Assembly (NCBI RefSeq): GCF_039536245.1
Contig: NZ_BAAAYN010000007.1
Coordinates: 91,947 to 144,151 of the forward strand
DNA: 52,205 nucleotides
Reading direction: 5' to 3'
DNA from: Cryptosporangium minutisporangium
Lineage (GTDB): Bacteria; Actinomycetota; Actinomycetes; Mycobacteriales; Cryptosporangiaceae
In this document: piece by piece, positions 8,247-13,525 of the stretch
Numbering within the stretch: position 1 is the stretch's first letter
How the letters are laid out: each line of letters begins with the position of its first letter
The notes under the pieces: model-generated
What the model was told of the DNA's origin: nothing
Database searches by the model: none
What the model saw: only the letters and a program-made list of their open reading frames with translations
Made by a program: the position numbers and the translations under genes

Positions 8247-10871
8247 ATGGCTGGTGGTCGTTCCCGCGCGTCTGGATCAAATCCGGCCGGCTCGCAGAAC
8301 GGACCCGCGAAGAAGGCTGCCCCGCGGAAGGCCGCTCCTCGCAAGGCCGCCGGACGGACCCCCACTGCACGCACGGCCGCCGCTCGCGGCGGCGCGAGGC
8401 CCGCGAAGGCCACCAAGCGCGCTACCCCGGCCGGCCGCGGCAAGGCAGCGCCGTCCCGGGTCCCCGGTCCGGGTCAGGTCCTGCTCAACGCCTGGCTGCT
8501 AGTGGCGCGCGGCGTCGGCGGTGGAGTACGCGCGGCCGGGCGACAGGCGTCCACGGCCCGAGACCTGCCTGCTGAACATCGGCGGGACGGTGCCGGCCTG
8601 CTGGTGCTGGCGATCGGCATCGTCGCGGCTGCCGCGCTCTGGTTCAACGCAGGCGGACCCACCGGCGACGTGACCCGGACGGCCCTCCGATGGCTGTTCG
8701 GCTCCGCCGCCGTGGCGCTCCCGGTCCTGTTCGGCGCGGCCGCGGTCCGGATGATGCGGACGCCCGCCGACCCCGAGCACCGCGGCCGGATGGTCGTCGG
8801 CTGGTCGGCGCTGACCATCGGTTTACTGGGCCTGTTCCACCTGGGCGCCGGTGACGCCTCCGACCCGGACACCTGGACGCACGCCGGCGGGGTGATCGGC
8901 CGGTTCGCCGCCGGTCCGCTGGTCGCCGCGGTCACCGCGTGGGTGGCGATCCCGATCCTGGTGCTGGTCGTGATCTTCGGCGTGCTGGTGATCACCGCGA
9001 CGCCGATCGCCGCGATTCCGGCCCGCCTGGACCAGCTCTGGGGCCTGACCCAGGGCCGCGTCCAAGCCCTGCCGCCGGACGTCGAGGGCGAGGACGTCGG
9101 CCTGGACGTGGTCGACGATGCACTCGCTGCGCCGCCTCGTCCGCGGCGCCGCCGCCGGGCCGCGGACGGCCTGACCCCCGACACCGGGCCGGTCGGCGAT
9201 CCCGAGGAGACCGGCGCGATCCGTCGCACCGGTCCGGACAGCGTGCCCGCTGCGGGGGTGCCCGGCCCGCGTCCCGGCGTCAAGCGGGCGACGACCCCGG
9301 CCGAGCCGGCGGACGTACCGGCGTCACCACCGCGCAGCGCTCCCGAGCACACGCCGGCACCGACGCGGGCCGAACAACTCGCGCTCAGCGCGACCGAGGG
9401 CGACTACCGGCTCCCGCCGCCGAACCTGCTCTCGTCCGGCCCGCCGGCGAAGACCCGTAGTCGCGCCAACGACACCGTGATCGCGGCGCTGACCGGCGTG
9501 TTCGAACAGTTCGACGTGGACGCTGCGGTCACCGGCTTCACCCGGGGGCCGACGGTGACCCGGTACGAGATCGAGCTGGGCCCGGCCGTGAAGGTCGAGC
9601 GGATCACGCAGCTCTCCCGGAACATCGCGTACGCCGTGAAGTCGCCGGACGTCCGGATCATCAGCCCGATCCCGGGCAAGTCCGCGGTCGGCGTCGAGAT
9701 CCCGAACACCGACCGGGAGACGGTCGCGCTCGGCGACGTCCTGCGCAGCCACGCGGCGACCAGCGACGAGCACCCGATGCTGGTCGGGCTGGGCAAGGAC
9801 ATCGAGGGTGGCTACGTCGTCGCGAACCTCGCGAAGATGCCGCACATCCTGGTAGCCGGAGCGACCGGCGCCGGCAAGTCCAGCTGCATCAACACGCTCC
9901 TGGTGTCGATCCTGTCCCGGTCGACGCCGGACGAGGTGCGGCTGGTGCTCATCGACCCCAAGCGGGTCGAGCTGACGCTCTACGAAGGCATCCCGCACCT
10001 GGTCACGCCGATCATCACGAACGCGAAGAAGGCCGCGGACGCTCTGCAGTGGGTCGTCCGCGAGATGGACATGCGCTACGAGGACCTCGCGGCCTCGGGC
10101 GTGCGGCACATCGACGACTTCAACAAGAGGGTGAAGAGCGGCAAGATCACCGCGCCACCCGGTTCGGAGCGGGTCTACCGTCCCTACCCGTACCTGCTGG
10201 TGATCGTCGACGAGCTGGCCGACCTGATGATGGTGGCGCCGCGGGACGTCGAGGACGCGATCGTCCGGATCACGCAGCTGGCCCGAGCCGCCGGCATCCA
10301 CCTGGTCCTCGCGACGCAGCGCCCGAGCGTCGACGTGGTCACAGGTCTGATCAAGGCCAACGTGCCGTCGCGGCTGGCGTTCTCCACCTCGTCGCTGGCG
10401 GACTCGCGGGTCATCATCGACCAGCCCGGCGCGGAGAAGCTCGTCGGCCGTGGTGACGGGCTGTTCCTGCCGATGGGTGCGTCGAAGCCGATCCGCATCC
10501 AGGGCGCCTGGGTGACCGAGAACGAGACCGCGGCGATCGTCAAGTTCTGCAAGGAGCAGCGCGAGCCGGAGTTCCGCGAGGACGTGACCGCGCCGACGGC
10601 GGCCAAGAAGGACATCGACGAGGACATCGGCGACGACCTCGACCTGCTCTGCCAGGCGGTGGAGCTGGTCGTGACGACCCAGTTCGGCTCGACGTCGATG
10701 TTGCAGCGCAAGCTGCGCGTCGGGTTCGCGAAGGCGGGCCGGCTGATGGACCTGATGGAGACGCGGGGCGTCGTCGGACCGTCCGAGGGGTCGAAGGCCC
10801 GGGATGTTCTGGTGAAGCCGGACGAGCTGGACTCGGTCCTCACCGTCCTCCGTGGAGGCGCTGCGGAGTAA
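8247..10871 (+). CDS. ftsK: DNA translocase FtsK/SpoIIIE
   Basis: FtsK pumps chromosomal DNA through the closing septum or sporulation septum. The 874-residue protein begins with an 80-residue Lys/Ala/Pro/Arg tail (repeated KKAAPRKAAPRKAA), then four transmembrane helices (about 115-265), a variable Pro-rich linker (about 290-380), the motor with Walker A GATGAGKSS near residues 537-545, Walker B VIVDELADLMM and ATQRPSVDV. A C-terminal winged-helix gamma domain (about 805-874, STSMLQRKLRVGFAKAGRLMDLME) binds orienting DNA sites. The highly basic N-terminal tail is histone H1-like. ATG at 8247 is the first start in frame. A hairpin follows 21 bases after the stop. Confidence 0.96.
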   Translation: MAGGRSRASGSNPAGSQNGPAKKAAPRKAAPRKAAGRTPTARTAAARGGARPAKATKRATPAGRGKAAPSRVPGPGQVLLNAWLLVARGVGGGVRAAGRQASTARDLPAEHRRDGAGLLVLAIGIVAAAALWFNAGGPTGDVTRTALRWLFGSAAVALPVLFGAAAVRMMRTPADPEHRGRMVVGWSALTIGLLGLFHLGAGDASDPDTWTHAGGVIGRFAAGPLVAAVTAWVAIPILVLVVIFGVLVITATPIAAIPARLDQLWGLTQGRVQALPPDVEGEDVGLDVVDDALAAPPRPRRRRRAADGLTPDTGPVGDPEETGAIRRTGPDSVPAAGVPGPRPGVKRATTPAEPADVPASPPRSAPEHTPAPTRAEQLALSATEGDYRLPPPNLLSSGPPAKTRSRANDTVIAALTGVFEQFDVDAAVTGFTRGPTVTRYEIELGPAVKVERITQLSRNIAYAVKSPDVRIISPIPGKSAVGVEIPNTDRETVALGDVLRSHAATSDEHPMLVGLGKDIEGGYVVANLAKMPHILVAGATGAGKSSCINTLLVSILSRSTPDEVRLVLIDPKRVELTLYEGIPHLVTPIITNAKKAADALQWVVREMDMRYEDLAASGVRHIDDFNKRVKSGKITAPPGSERVYRPYPYLLVIVDELADLMMVAPRDVEDAIVRITQLARAAGIHLVLATQRPSVDVVTGLIKANVPSRLAFSTSSLADSRVIIDQPGAEKLVGRGDGLFLPMGASKPIRIQGAWVTENETAAIVKFCKEQREPEFREDVTAPTAAKKDIDEDIGDDLDLLCQAVELVVTTQFGSTSMLQRKLRVGFAKAGRLMDLMETRGVVGPSEGSKARDVLVKPDELDSVLTVLRGGAAE

Positions 10872-10948: not shown

Positions 10949-11614
10949 TCAGGCCGGGCGGGCCGCGGCCATCGCTGCGGCGCGGGCGCCGGCCTGGGCC
11001 GGCGTCAGAACCTCGTCGGCGACGACGACGGCCTCGAACAGCGACAGCGGGATGCGTTCGAACAGCGGCGAGCCGAGGCTGTCGAACACGTCCGGCGGCA
11101 CGATCCGGTCGGGCGTCGTGACGACCACCGTCGGCAGCCGCTCGGCCAGATCGCGGGTGCCGACGATGTTGAGGACCTCGGTCGGCCCCACCGCGTCGGC
11201 CCCGGCGAGTCCGGTCAGCGCGCGGGAGGCGTCGGTGCCGGACGCCGCCCCGCCGAGCCGGGCGAGCACGCGCCGGGTGGTCCCGCTGCTCGGCGCGGTG
11301 ACGAACCCGCCCACCCGGCCGGCCAGCAGCCGGTAGGCGGTGTCGACGGCCGCCTGAGCGTCCCGCTCCAGGCGAGCGGCGAACCGTGGCAGCTCGATCC
11401 GGGGGTCGCCCGTCTCCAGCAGCCGCTCCAGGTGCCACAGGCTGGCATAACCGGCGAGTTCGCGGCGAAGAAAGCGAAGACAATGCGCTACGAGTTCAGA
11501 TTGATCCGCGATTTCTTCGAGTTCAGAAATGGCGCGCAATGTGACTCCGGTAGAGCCGACGTCGCGAACAGAGGTCAGTGCGACGAGTCCAGGGGGAATA
11601 TTTTCCGCGGTCAC
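10949..11614 (-). CDS. Compact eIF2B/MtnA-fold-like protein
   Basis: A 221-residue protein that resembles the eIF2B alpha/beta/delta family, which also includes methylthioribose-1-phosphate and ribose-1,5-bisphosphate isomerases. Matching blocks in family order are FVTAPSSGTTRRVL (like the THSxSSTVxxxL block), GLAGADAVGPTEVLNIVGT (like GAD..........NKIGT, with D140), LPTVVVTTPDRIVP, and SPLFERIPLSLFEAVVVADE near the C-terminus (like NPxFExTPxxLITAIITE). The segment between the SSGTT and GADAV blocks is only about 25 residues, where isomerases have about 55-60, so part of the sugar-phosphate site appears missing. The gene is divergent from the NDPK-like gene. The family call is my pattern match; function unknown. 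Confidence 0.6.
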   Translation of the reverse strand: MTAENIPPGLVALTSVRDVGSTGVTLRAISELEEIADQSELVAHCLRFLRRELAGYASLWHLERLLETGDPRIELPRFAARLERDAQAAVDTAYRLLAGRVGGFVTAPSSGTTRRVLARLGGAASGTDASRALTGLAGADAVGPTEVLNIVGTRDLAERLPTVVVTTPDRIVPPDVFDSLGSPLFERIPLSLFEAVVVADEVLTPAQAGARAAAMAAARPA

Positions 11615-11831
11615 CCAGCGACCTTTCCGATCAGGCGGGAGTTCACCGGGGAACTAAGCTACCGTCGAGGGCGACCGCCACTTCATCCACGGTCGACTAA
11701 AGCTGATGCTGACCGAATGCATGAACGCATCGCTCCGTGTCGACTCCTCGGCGCGACGAGCCTCCCCGCGCTGTGCTGGGGCGATAGCACTGCTCGCGCT
11801 GGATACCCACCGACCTGTCTGGGAGGCCACG

Positions 11832-12824
11832 GTGGCTCAGCCGGACCATTTCGGCCCTACTCCGTTAACTGAATTCGTGCACTTGGATCCCGTTGTCGTA
11901 CCGGATCCGGTGGACCTTCGATTAGCACAGTCGGCCGGTAAACGGCGACTCTATTCGGTCGACACCTATTACCGGGACTCCTGGGAGGATTTAATGCGTA
12001 TCGGTGGCTCTGATGCCGTCGGGATAGCCACCCGGCATGCGTTCGCGCTGCTCAAACCGGATGCGGTGGTACGACGGCGGTTGGTGTCCGCGCTGGAGTG
12101 GCTTTCGGTGCGGGGATGGCGGGTGGTGCACGCCCGCCGGTTCCGCGTCCACCGCTGGGCGGTTCGTGCGTTCTGGCAGTACCAGTGGAACACCGCGACC
12201 CGCGACCGGCGGGAGATGGCGGACCTCTACATGTCGGCGACCGACTCGCTCGTGCTGCTGCTCCGCGCGCCGCACGACGGCGAGTGGGCGTCGTCGATCC
12301 TCACCCGCGGGAAGGGATCGTCGGATCCGGCGCGCTGCCGGCCCGGCCAGCTGCGGCACGCGCTGGGGACGCTCAACCAGCAGCTCAACCTCGTGCACAC
12401 CGCGGACGAGCCGGTGGATCTCATCCGGGAGATCGGGATCTGCTGCACGGCGTCGGAGCGCGCGGATCTCTACCGGGCGCTCGTCGACGGGGTGGACGCA
12501 GCGGACGAGGCGGTCGACCGGGCGCGCCGGTTGGAAGCCGACCACGAAGCGCTCGACCTGTCGCTGACCGGCACCGTCGCGCGGCTGGCCGGCCGGTCGG
12601 TCGGCGGCGGCGAGCGCGCGCTGCTGCGACGCAGGCTCACCGGACTGCTGGACGGACGCACGACCGGCTGGCGGGAGCTCGTCGCGCTGGCCGACCGGGC
12701 CGGTGTCGCGCTCTCCCGGTGGGACCGGGTCGTGCTCGGCACGTACCTTCTCGTCCCGACGCTTCCGGGCGTCGTCCCGCTCGTTTCGGACGCCTCGGCC
12801 GCCGGGGTCGGGCCGCCTCAGTAG
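11832..12824 (+). CDS. Nucleoside-diphosphate-kinase-like protein
   Basis: A 330-residue protein whose middle (about 66-206) matches NDP kinase: HAFALLKPDAVV (Lys75 equals the conserved IKPDA lysine), GSSDPARCRPGQLRHALG (like GxTDPxxAxPGTIRGxF) and NLVHTADEPVDLIREIGI, where Asn186 and His189 correspond to the conserved asparagine and the phospho-accepting histidine of NxxHGSDS. NDPKs move the gamma phosphate between nucleotides. It is far longer than the usual 140 residues: a 65-residue N-terminus and a 120-residue helical C-terminus are unassigned, and the HGSDS motif has become HTADE. I chose the GTG at 11832 because GGGAGG lies 5 bases upstream; the frame is open from the ATG at 11706. Its last 7 bases overlap the convergent deformylase gene. 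Confidence 0.7.
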   Translation: MAQPDHFGPTPLTEFVHLDPVVVPDPVDLRLAQSAGKRRLYSVDTYYRDSWEDLMRIGGSDAVGIATRHAFALLKPDAVVRRRLVSALEWLSVRGWRVVHARRFRVHRWAVRAFWQYQWNTATRDRREMADLYMSATDSLVLLLRAPHDGEWASSILTRGKGSSDPARCRPGQLRHALGTLNQQLNLVHTADEPVDLIREIGICCTASERADLYRALVDGVDAADEAVDRARRLEADHEALDLSLTGTVARLAGRSVGGGERALLRRRLTGLLDGRTTGWRELVALADRAGVALSRWDRVVLGTYLLVPTLPGVVPLVSDASAAGVGPPQ

Positions 12825-13525
12825 TTCCCGGCGGCCTCGGTCGCGCGGTAGTCCTCGACCGGGATCAGCCGGTCCGTCGCCGCCATCAGGTCGCAGTACA
12901 GGACGCCGTCCAGATGGTCGATCTCGTGCGCCACCAGCCGCGCCAGGCTGCCGTTGAAGCGGGTGGTGCGCGGCGTCCCGTCCCACGCCTGGTCTTCGAC
13001 CACGAGGTGCACCGGACGCCGCACCCGGCCGCGCACGTCGAAGAAGCTCAGGCAGCCCTCGAAGCGGACGTCGTCGGCCGCGGAGCGGTCGACCACCCGC
13101 GGGTTGAGCAAGACGATCGGCCCGCGGGCGTCGGGCGTGCACACGATCGCGGCCCGGCGGCCGACCCCGATCTGCGGGGCGGCGAGCCCCATTCCCCCAC
13201 GGAACGAGTGGATGCGCCGTACCTCCGCCGCGGTGGCGCGCAACCGGGCCACCACCTGGCGGGCCGCCCGCGCCTCGGTGGGAAGGGTGAACTCGACGGA
13301 CGGTTTGCCGAGTAGCGGATCCTCGTCCCTCTGGGCGATCCCCAACGCTCGCAGGTCTCCGCTGGACGCCGAGCGGGCGGGGAGAACCGGGGCGATCGTT
13401 GTGGCGCGAGAGGCGGATGAGATCACGGAAGGGCAGATTAGCGCCCCGATGTCTGGTCTCGCTGCCGCCCCACCGGCGCTCACCCCGGAACCCGGCCATG
13501 ACCGGCGGGAAACCTGGATTCTCAT
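12818..13525 (-). CDS. def: Peptide deformylase
   Basis: Removes the formyl group from the initiator methionine of new proteins. All three PDF motifs are present: GMGLAAPQ (111-118), EGCLS (156-160, metal cysteine) and HEIDH (200-204, metal histidines and catalytic glutamate). From the ATG at 13525 the protein is 235 residues, 45-60 longer than typical, and the first 55 residues look unstructured. A GTG at 13426 would give a 202-residue protein closer to the family length, so the start is uncertain. The gene is convergent with the NDPK-like gene and divergent from the HAD gene. Whether it is the only deformylase cannot be judged here. Confidence 0.9.
   Translation of the reverse strand: MRIQVSRRSWPGSGVSAGGAAARPDIGALICPSVISSASRATTIAPVLPARSASSGDLRALGIAQRDEDPLLGKPSVEFTLPTEARAARQVVARLRATAAEVRRIHSFRGGMGLAAPQIGVGRRAAIVCTPDARGPIVLLNPRVVDRSAADDVRFEGCLSFFDVRGRVRRPVHLVVEDQAWDGTPRTTRFNGSLARLVAHEIDHLDGVLYCDLMAATDRLIPVEDYRATEAAGNY

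Follow-up and report, generated by a model that had tools for sequence, protein, structure and literature searches.

Why should a compact protein with the fold of the eIF2B family stand back to back with a divergent nucleoside diphosphate kinase (NDPK) in an actinobacterial genome, and do the two genes belong together? The question is raised by a gene pair of Cryptosporangium minutisporangium in the window, by which we mean the whole stretch of 52,205 nucleotides that was analysed (G000:C7:91947-144151, from a genome of 9.23 Mb). The minus strand encodes a protein of 221 residues with a GTG start (10949..11614), the plus strand an NDPK-like protein of 330 residues when read from the GTG at 11832 (11832..12824), and a divergent intergenic region of 217 bases (11615..11831) lies between them. 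Both open reading frames (ORFs) were found where a first-pass annotation, made from the letters of the DNA, had placed them, and both genes are real and under purifying selection. For the eIF2B-like gene, the rates of non-synonymous and synonymous substitution (dN/dS) against three congeners are 0.073/0.547, 0.191/0.467 and 0.268/0.948, corresponding to ratios of 0.13 to 0.41.

The minus-strand protein would be a reduced relative of a eukaryotic protein of stress sensing, and the recurrence of this pair in distantly related actinobacteria may point to a module for sensing or transferring phosphate that has so far gone undescribed. No description of the pair was found in the open-access PMC literature, to which the search extended; no paper there combines eIF2B, nucleoside diphosphate kinase and Actinobacteria, and the NDPK passages of PMC6429109 and PMC12691670 are unrelated to the pair. 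Both kinds of protein are already known, and what seems new is the pairing of a compact eIF2B fold with a divergent NDPK.

Fold and pocket of the minus-strand protein

Sequence libraries gave little for the 221-residue protein. Pfam contained 0 matching families at E ≤ 1, so that PF01008, the family of MtnA and ribose-1,5-bisphosphate (R15P) isomerase, was not matched either, and NCBIfam contained 0 families at E ≤ 0.1. PADLOC yielded 0 matches at E ≤ 1, and with no match there a defence-system origin was dropped; the single match in PHROGs (E 0.61) is at chance level. Against the PDB sequences, phmmer with the protein found no relation and a profile of ten homologues (hmmsearch) reached E 0.06 at best. 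As no library matched and a profile comparison with PF01008 proteins (hhalign) was not significant, the assignment to eIF2B would fail by sequence statistics alone. The best register of that comparison is the expected one, aligning GADR with GADA, NKIGT with NIVGT and PAFDVTP with PLFERIP.

The assignment is carried by the predicted structure. An AlphaFold2 model computed with 24 homologues (mean predicted local distance difference test, pLDDT, 92.1; predicted TM-score, pTM, 0.88), in favour of which a shallow model from 4 sequences (pLDDT 61.9) was set aside, gave 104 PDB matches at E ≤ 0.001 in Foldseek. All of the 50 matches listed out of these 104 (50/50, E 5.0e-9 to 1.5e-6) are entries of the eIF2B family, namely eIF2B and eIF2B-eIF2 complexes, eIF2B-alpha, the eIF-2B homologue of P. 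horikoshii and R15P isomerase. They include the human eIF2-eIF2B complex 9hve_A (E 5.0e-9), human eIF2B-alpha 3ecs_D (E 3.3e-8), R15P isomerase 5yft_A (E 1.4e-7) and 1vb5_B from P. horikoshii, whose TM-score normalised by the query (0.72) is the highest among the listed matches. On the evidence of this model we accept that the minus-strand protein has the overall two-domain eIF2B fold, as the first-pass annotation had claimed; the family motifs that it had pointed out are present in the window protein and mostly conserved in the 24 homologues.

The isomerase core is indeed shortened, as had been noticed at the outset, but by more than the roughly 30 residues then estimated. From the first Rossmann motif (THC) to the GAD motif there are 35 residues in the window protein against 83 in an MtnA-type consensus, a difference of about 48. 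The same compact form is found in 24 homologues, whose alignment contains 26 invariant positions (alignment and tree cover 24 of the 26 eIF2B-like loci, L170 and L172 being left out). The spacing amounts to 30 to 49 residues in the 23 homologues in which it is measurable, the motif being changed in the one from Nocardia carnea (L088). To judge by how the secondary-structure elements follow each other in the model, the missing part would be the second and third strands of the core with their helices. The core is thus not a complete Rossmann core with the phosphate residue Gln166, as the stretch for this residue is absent.

Passages of PMC5789824 describe that R15P isomerase holds the 5-phosphate of its ligand by Ser137, Lys240 and backbone amides, the contact of Lys138 being one of the latter, the sugar by Asp204, Asn214 and Lys215, and the 1-phosphate by Arg22, Arg65, Gln166, Lys215 and one backbone amide, with Cys135 and Asp204 as catalytic residues. 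In eIF2B-alpha, according to passages of PMC8187479, the sugar is held by Gly196, Ala129, Tyr130, Glu198 and Asn208, and the phosphate by Arg132 and Lys234. If these positions are transferred to the window protein by motif register, which is not a residue-level superposition, Ser110 (codon 11285..11287, on the minus strand like the following ones) would correspond to the 5-phosphate residue Ser137 of R15P isomerase (Ser in 23/24 homologues, Thr in 1/24). Asp140 of the GAD motif (11195..11197) would correspond to Asp204 of the isomerase and Glu198 of eIF2B-alpha (Asp 23/24, Glu 1/24), and Asn149 (11168..11170) to Asn214 and Asn208, respectively, at the sugar ring (Asn 23/24). The phosphate residues Lys240 and Lys234 would have their counterpart in Arg170 (11105..11107), a position that is Lys or Arg in 23/24 homologues, with Lys in 19/24 and Arg in the window protein.

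The catalytic pair of R15P isomerase and MtnA is only half present, as its acidic member is Asp or Glu in 24/24 homologues but Cys is found in 0/24 at the position of Cys135, which is Pro in 23/24 and Ala in 1/24. Lys215 is replaced by Ile or Val in 24/24. This pattern is that of a putative pocket for a sugar and its 5'-phosphate without the isomerase half. Since the residues matching such a pocket are kept, whereas the catalytic and 1-phosphate residues are lost, it becomes more plausible that both proteins might share a phosphorylated metabolite, as was supposed in the first-pass annotation. With eIF2B-alpha, the window protein has in common the fold, equivalents of Glu198, Asn208 and Lys234, and the lack of a catalytic Cys. 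It differs in being a bacterial protein of 221 residues with a shortened core, in having no eIF2B complex and in the missing Arg132 equivalent. The likeness to R15P isomerase and MtnA consists of the fold, the pocket Asp and Asn, and the Ser and Lys of the 5-phosphate site, whereas the replaced Cys135 and Lys215, the absent Gln166 stretch and the sequence comparisons with PF01008 set it apart from these enzymes.

The NDPK-like partner and its linkage to the eIF2B-like gene

The NDPK domain claimed for the plus-strand protein is confirmed by Pfam (NDK, PF00334; E 7.5e-10, 39.2 bits against a cut-off of 27). By Pfam and alignments it comprises residues 111-247 of the 372-residue frame that begins further upstream (12036..12446, plus strand), and it is followed by a C-terminal extension of about 125 residues (12447..12821) that is conserved in paired homologues but under weaker constraint, as seen from dN/dS by part. 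The genome has an ordinary NDK gene at another site (E 2.6e-49), and the window protein falls far below the housekeeping NDK equivalog of NCBIfam (33.1 bits against a cut-off of 155). In the alignment to the genome's own NDK, Lys117 (12054-12056), Arg217, Asn228, His231 (12396-12398) and Glu242 of the 372-residue frame are kept, which we take to be the equivalents of Lys12, Arg105, Asn115, His118 and Glu129 in NDPK numbering. What distinguishes the protein from NDPKs, besides its equivalog score, is its size of 330 residues with two extensions, the loss of the Arg88 equivalent and the sequence HTADE in place of HxSDS. This last change had been seen correctly, but HGSDS is not the proper reference for it, as the housekeeping NDK of the same genome reads HASDS.

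The two extensions had also been observed correctly, but they are not peculiar to the pair and belong to a larger NDPK-like family. A first scan of genome contigs with P0002 found nothing; an alignment-based scan of species-representative contigs found 124 relatives with similar N- and C-terminal extensions, the best 80 of which (loci L057-L136) were surveyed. The family occurs mainly in Streptomyces and Nocardia, also in Kutzneria, and in single cases such as Aquabacterium. Many of its loci are of a biosynthetic type, with genes for an AMP ligase, an acyl carrier protein (ACP), a reductase, and AfsA-like, nitroreductase and UbiA-like proteins beside PPDK_N; Pfam covered eight proteins of two such loci. 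The proteins linked to an eIF2B-like gene share the NDPK domain and the extensions with this family, but they group apart from it and have the eIF2B-like gene as neighbor instead of the PPDK, ligase, ACP and reductase genes.

A tblastn search of the eIF2B-like protein against the 80 NDPK-like loci gave 6 matches (L057-L061 and L088) at E 1.1e-24 or better. They come from Actinomadura, Sphaerisporangium, Plantactinospora and Nocardia carnea, and in all six the eIF2B-like gene lies directly upstream of the NDPK-like gene on the same strand; at four of the junctions, the spacing lies between an overlap of 4 bases and a gap of 6. Profile searches found the eIF2B-like gene in 4/397 genomes of the order to which the window belongs (with a profile of four close sequences), in 17/300 genomes of the family including Plantactinospora and in 4/297 of the family including Sphaerisporangium and Actinomadura. 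When each locus is counted once, as L057-L061 overlap with the finds of the family searches, 26 eIF2B-like loci result. An NDPK-like gene adjoins 15 of these. The window genus contributes 4, the families of Plantactinospora and Sphaerisporangium 7 and 3, respectively, and N. carnea 1; together they represent six genera from four families. The genes are divergent in 4/4 genomes of the window genus and co-directional in 11/11 other linked loci. The recurrent linkage across genera that had been anticipated is thus found; it is real and far above chance adjacency, but not obligatory.

Trees of both proteins bear on the history of the pair. Of the 15 linked proteins, 13 were entered in an NDPK-like tree of 98 rows (all but L161 and L162; the row of L088 is long), and these 13 rows fall to the same side of a branch with support 98/92. 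When the labels were shuffled, a mean of 12.4 changes resulted and 0/500 shuffles were as low as the observed tree. For the linked proteins to be a clade, the root would have to be placed elsewhere in the tree. On the 24-row eIF2B-like tree, the paired and unpaired states require two changes. One unpaired locus of Plantactinospora (L164) has the same neighbors with no kinase between them, and as it falls among the paired Plantactinospora in this tree, a loss of the NDPK-like gene at L164 is suggested.

Some further finds of these searches stand apart from the pair. Weak class-level matches to the eIF2B-like profile, which for this search was built from only four close sequences, occur in 11 genomes besides that of the window (E 2.8e-4 to 0.0097), but they are short and scattered and were taken as chance. 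A HAD phosphatase gene occurs close to the pair both in Plantactinospora and in the window genus. It was considered as a part of the system and rejected, as the window copy does not match the Plantactinospora one at E 1e-3. Among the Nocardia carnea loci within the 80, the eIF2B-like gene is found in strain 760185008 (L088) only and not in L105, L107 and L116, the NDPK-like genes of which group with the Nocardia biosynthetic-cluster type.

Proposed function and rival explanations

The most likely reading in our view is that the two genes form a phosphotransfer module, in which an NDPK-like phosphotransferase is combined with a non-catalytic partner that binds a phosphometabolite, and we would give this reading a probability of roughly 0.4. 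Its computed basis comprises the fold match, the conservation of motifs and pocket, the loss of the Cys and of part of the core, the conservation of most NDPK active-site residues, the linkage, the grouping of the kinases and the purifying selection; the class of ligand, the contact between the proteins, the activity and the regulation are what we infer from it. The plus-strand protein would act as a phosphotransferase of the NDPK family via a phosphorylated His231, with an altered recognition of the nucleotide. The minus-strand protein, its eIF2B fold reduced to a minimum, would serve as a subunit or partner without catalytic activity. In what was once the isomerase pocket it may bind a nucleoside 5'-monophosphate or the 5'- or 6'-phosphate of a sugar, and it might either present this ligand to the NDPK-like enzyme or control that enzyme. 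A possible parallel is eIF2B-alpha, in which this pocket serves to sense sugar phosphates. A bolder proposal, which we consider rather improbable, is that the pair is a bacterial counterpart of sugar-phosphate sensing by eIF2B-alpha, in which the minimal fold, having shed the isomerase half and retained only the pocket for the sugar and its 5'-phosphate, controls or supplies an NDPK-like phosphotransferase of its own and so converts the level of a phosphometabolite into a phosphorylated product or signal. If a separate lineage has dropped the catalytic half of the isomerase and kept its pocket residues, this would be an independent case of evolution from enzyme to sensor, and the two-gene system is small enough for purification and testing. 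The finding also delimits the NDPK-like family that is spread over actinobacterial clusters of biosynthetic type.

Several observations weigh against a phosphotransfer module. In the hhalign comparison with 31 PF01008 proteins, the score of 12.3 (E 0.63) is below the median of shuffled templates (14.8), with 131/150 column-shuffled templates scoring at least as high, and the reversed template (16.8) and an NDPK alignment (19.9) score higher still. The pocket depends on an assignment by motif register, and the position of Arg132 in eIF2B-alpha and Lys138 in R15P isomerase is occupied by Ser in 13, Ala in 7, Gly in 3 and Pro in 1 of the 24 homologues. The N. carnea protein (L088) has lost several pocket residues, yet its gene is linked to an NDPK-like gene. 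The kinase itself has no equivalent of Arg88 and carries Ala in place of the Ser of HxSDS, and because of these two losses its activity is only putative. The expectation of a strict linkage has to be given up, as 10/26 eIF2B-like loci (L164 and L166-L174, three of them, L166, L169 and L174, on short contigs) have no NDPK-like neighbor and at 1/26 (L177) only an atypical NDPK-like paralogue is adjacent. A search of all 10 unlinked genomes, part of which was scored incompletely on first-look candidates, found no relative of the NDPK-like family: six gave no match, and four gave matches of about 150 residues, a housekeeping size, at E 1.4e-7 to 3.3e-6. The eIF2B-like protein can therefore persist alone.

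These unlinked loci are also an argument for two independent functions, with genes that are neighbors by descent and an NDPK-like gene that is carried along or freely lost, an explanation that is unlikely in our view but has to be taken seriously. The Plantactinospora locus L164, where the kinase is missing from between the same neighbors, agrees with it, and so do the loci of genus g250 (L166-L172), in which the eIF2B-like gene stands without a kinase beside a citrate synthase-like gene in 7/7 genomes, as recognised by eye. Mere descent does not easily account for an adjacency that is found in six genera and four families and in two arrangements, or for the fact that the linked kinases fall together on a single branch.

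The neighborhood of the wider NDPK-like family suggests instead a pair of biosynthetic enzymes, possibly a leftover of natural-product tailoring, in which the eIF2B-like protein would carry out an Asp-dependent, Cys-independent chemistry on a phosphorylated intermediate made by the NDPK-like enzyme. In that family a PPDK_N-like gene (the PPDK_N/PEP-utiliser ORF cluster of a single-linkage clustering, with Pfam on one example) occurs in 68/80 loci. A nucleotidyltransferase (NTase)-type motif occurs in 69/80 loci, compared with 0 occurrences in 394,836 bases of control loci whose gene content was unmatched; some NTases escape the motif, such as the one that Pfam finds at L178. Such cluster partners point to nucleotide or phosphate chemistry. 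Three of the pairs themselves (L057, L058 and L178) lie near AsnB, NTase, PqqD, AurF or transketolase genes and a second, atypical NDPK-like gene, as identified by Pfam on selected neighbors. However, the catalytic Cys is absent in all 24 homologues together with the 1-phosphate residues, and inspection by eye of the gene's surroundings in the window genus, in Plantactinospora and in the unlinked g250 revealed no biosynthetic cluster, so that we regard an enzymatic role of the eIF2B-like protein as improbable, though far from negligible. It is very unlikely that the NDPK-like protein is a protein-histidine kinase with the eIF2B-like protein as its substrate, for example at His61. NDPKs have been described as protein histidine kinases, according to reference titles in PMC6429109, and His61 is the sole invariant His (24/24), but it is located in the helical domain beside the invariant Trp60 and may be structural. 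That the eIF2B-like protein has no function and is what is left of a decaying isomerase, as the shortened core and the lost Cys might suggest, can hardly be credited in view of its dN/dS ratios against three congeners, of the compact form and the invariant positions common to its 24 homologues, and of the confident compact fold model.

Gene start, flanking genes and diverged relatives

The plus-strand ORF has two possible starts, as its open frame extends from GTG 11832 (330 residues) back to ATG 11706 (372 residues). Against the congener G002, the 42 codons upstream of 11832 have a dN of 0.119 and a dS of 0.123, and the part after it a dN of 0.085 and a dS of 0.53. As these 42 codons do not behave like coding sequence, and as GGGAGG stands directly upstream, the start at GTG 11832 is favored. 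The residues Lys75, Asn186 and His189 and the gap of 217 bases reported in the first-pass annotation agree with this start. The intergenic region is partly conserved among close congeners in a four-genome alignment. Its bases 11706-11831 share 88.9% identity with G002 and have a dS of 0.12 against 0.53 in the NDPK-like gene, and they are partly common to L024 too; this segment may hold conserved regulatory sites.

The pair is flanked by ftsK (8247..10871, plus strand; Pfam FtsK_SpoIIIE, E 7.5e-66) and by the convergent peptide deformylase gene def (12818..13525, minus strand; Pfam Pep_deformylase, E 1.1e-29). Both are constant neighbors in 4/4 genomes of the window genus (G000-G003), identified by Pfam for the window copies and by eye from the ORF starts in the other three genomes.

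The atypical NDPK-like paralogues near other eIF2B-like genes (L057:11167-12417(-), L058:10955-12004(+) and L177:8306-9364(-)) have Pro-Pro for Lys-Pro at the Lys12 site and keep the His; the one at L057 has a Pfam NDK match. Elsewhere, three diverged NDPK-like genes of a single genome lie within 16 kb (G008:C3:1775000-1806000; L020 and L021), and by eye their neighbors are two MurA-like genes and dTMP-kinase-like, NUDIX-like, aldolase-like and NTase-type genes. The betaproteobacterium Aquabacterium sp. A7-Y (L102) has two genes of the NDPK-like family, one of which is 35% identical to the query, and this suggests a transfer of the NDPK-like gene between phyla.

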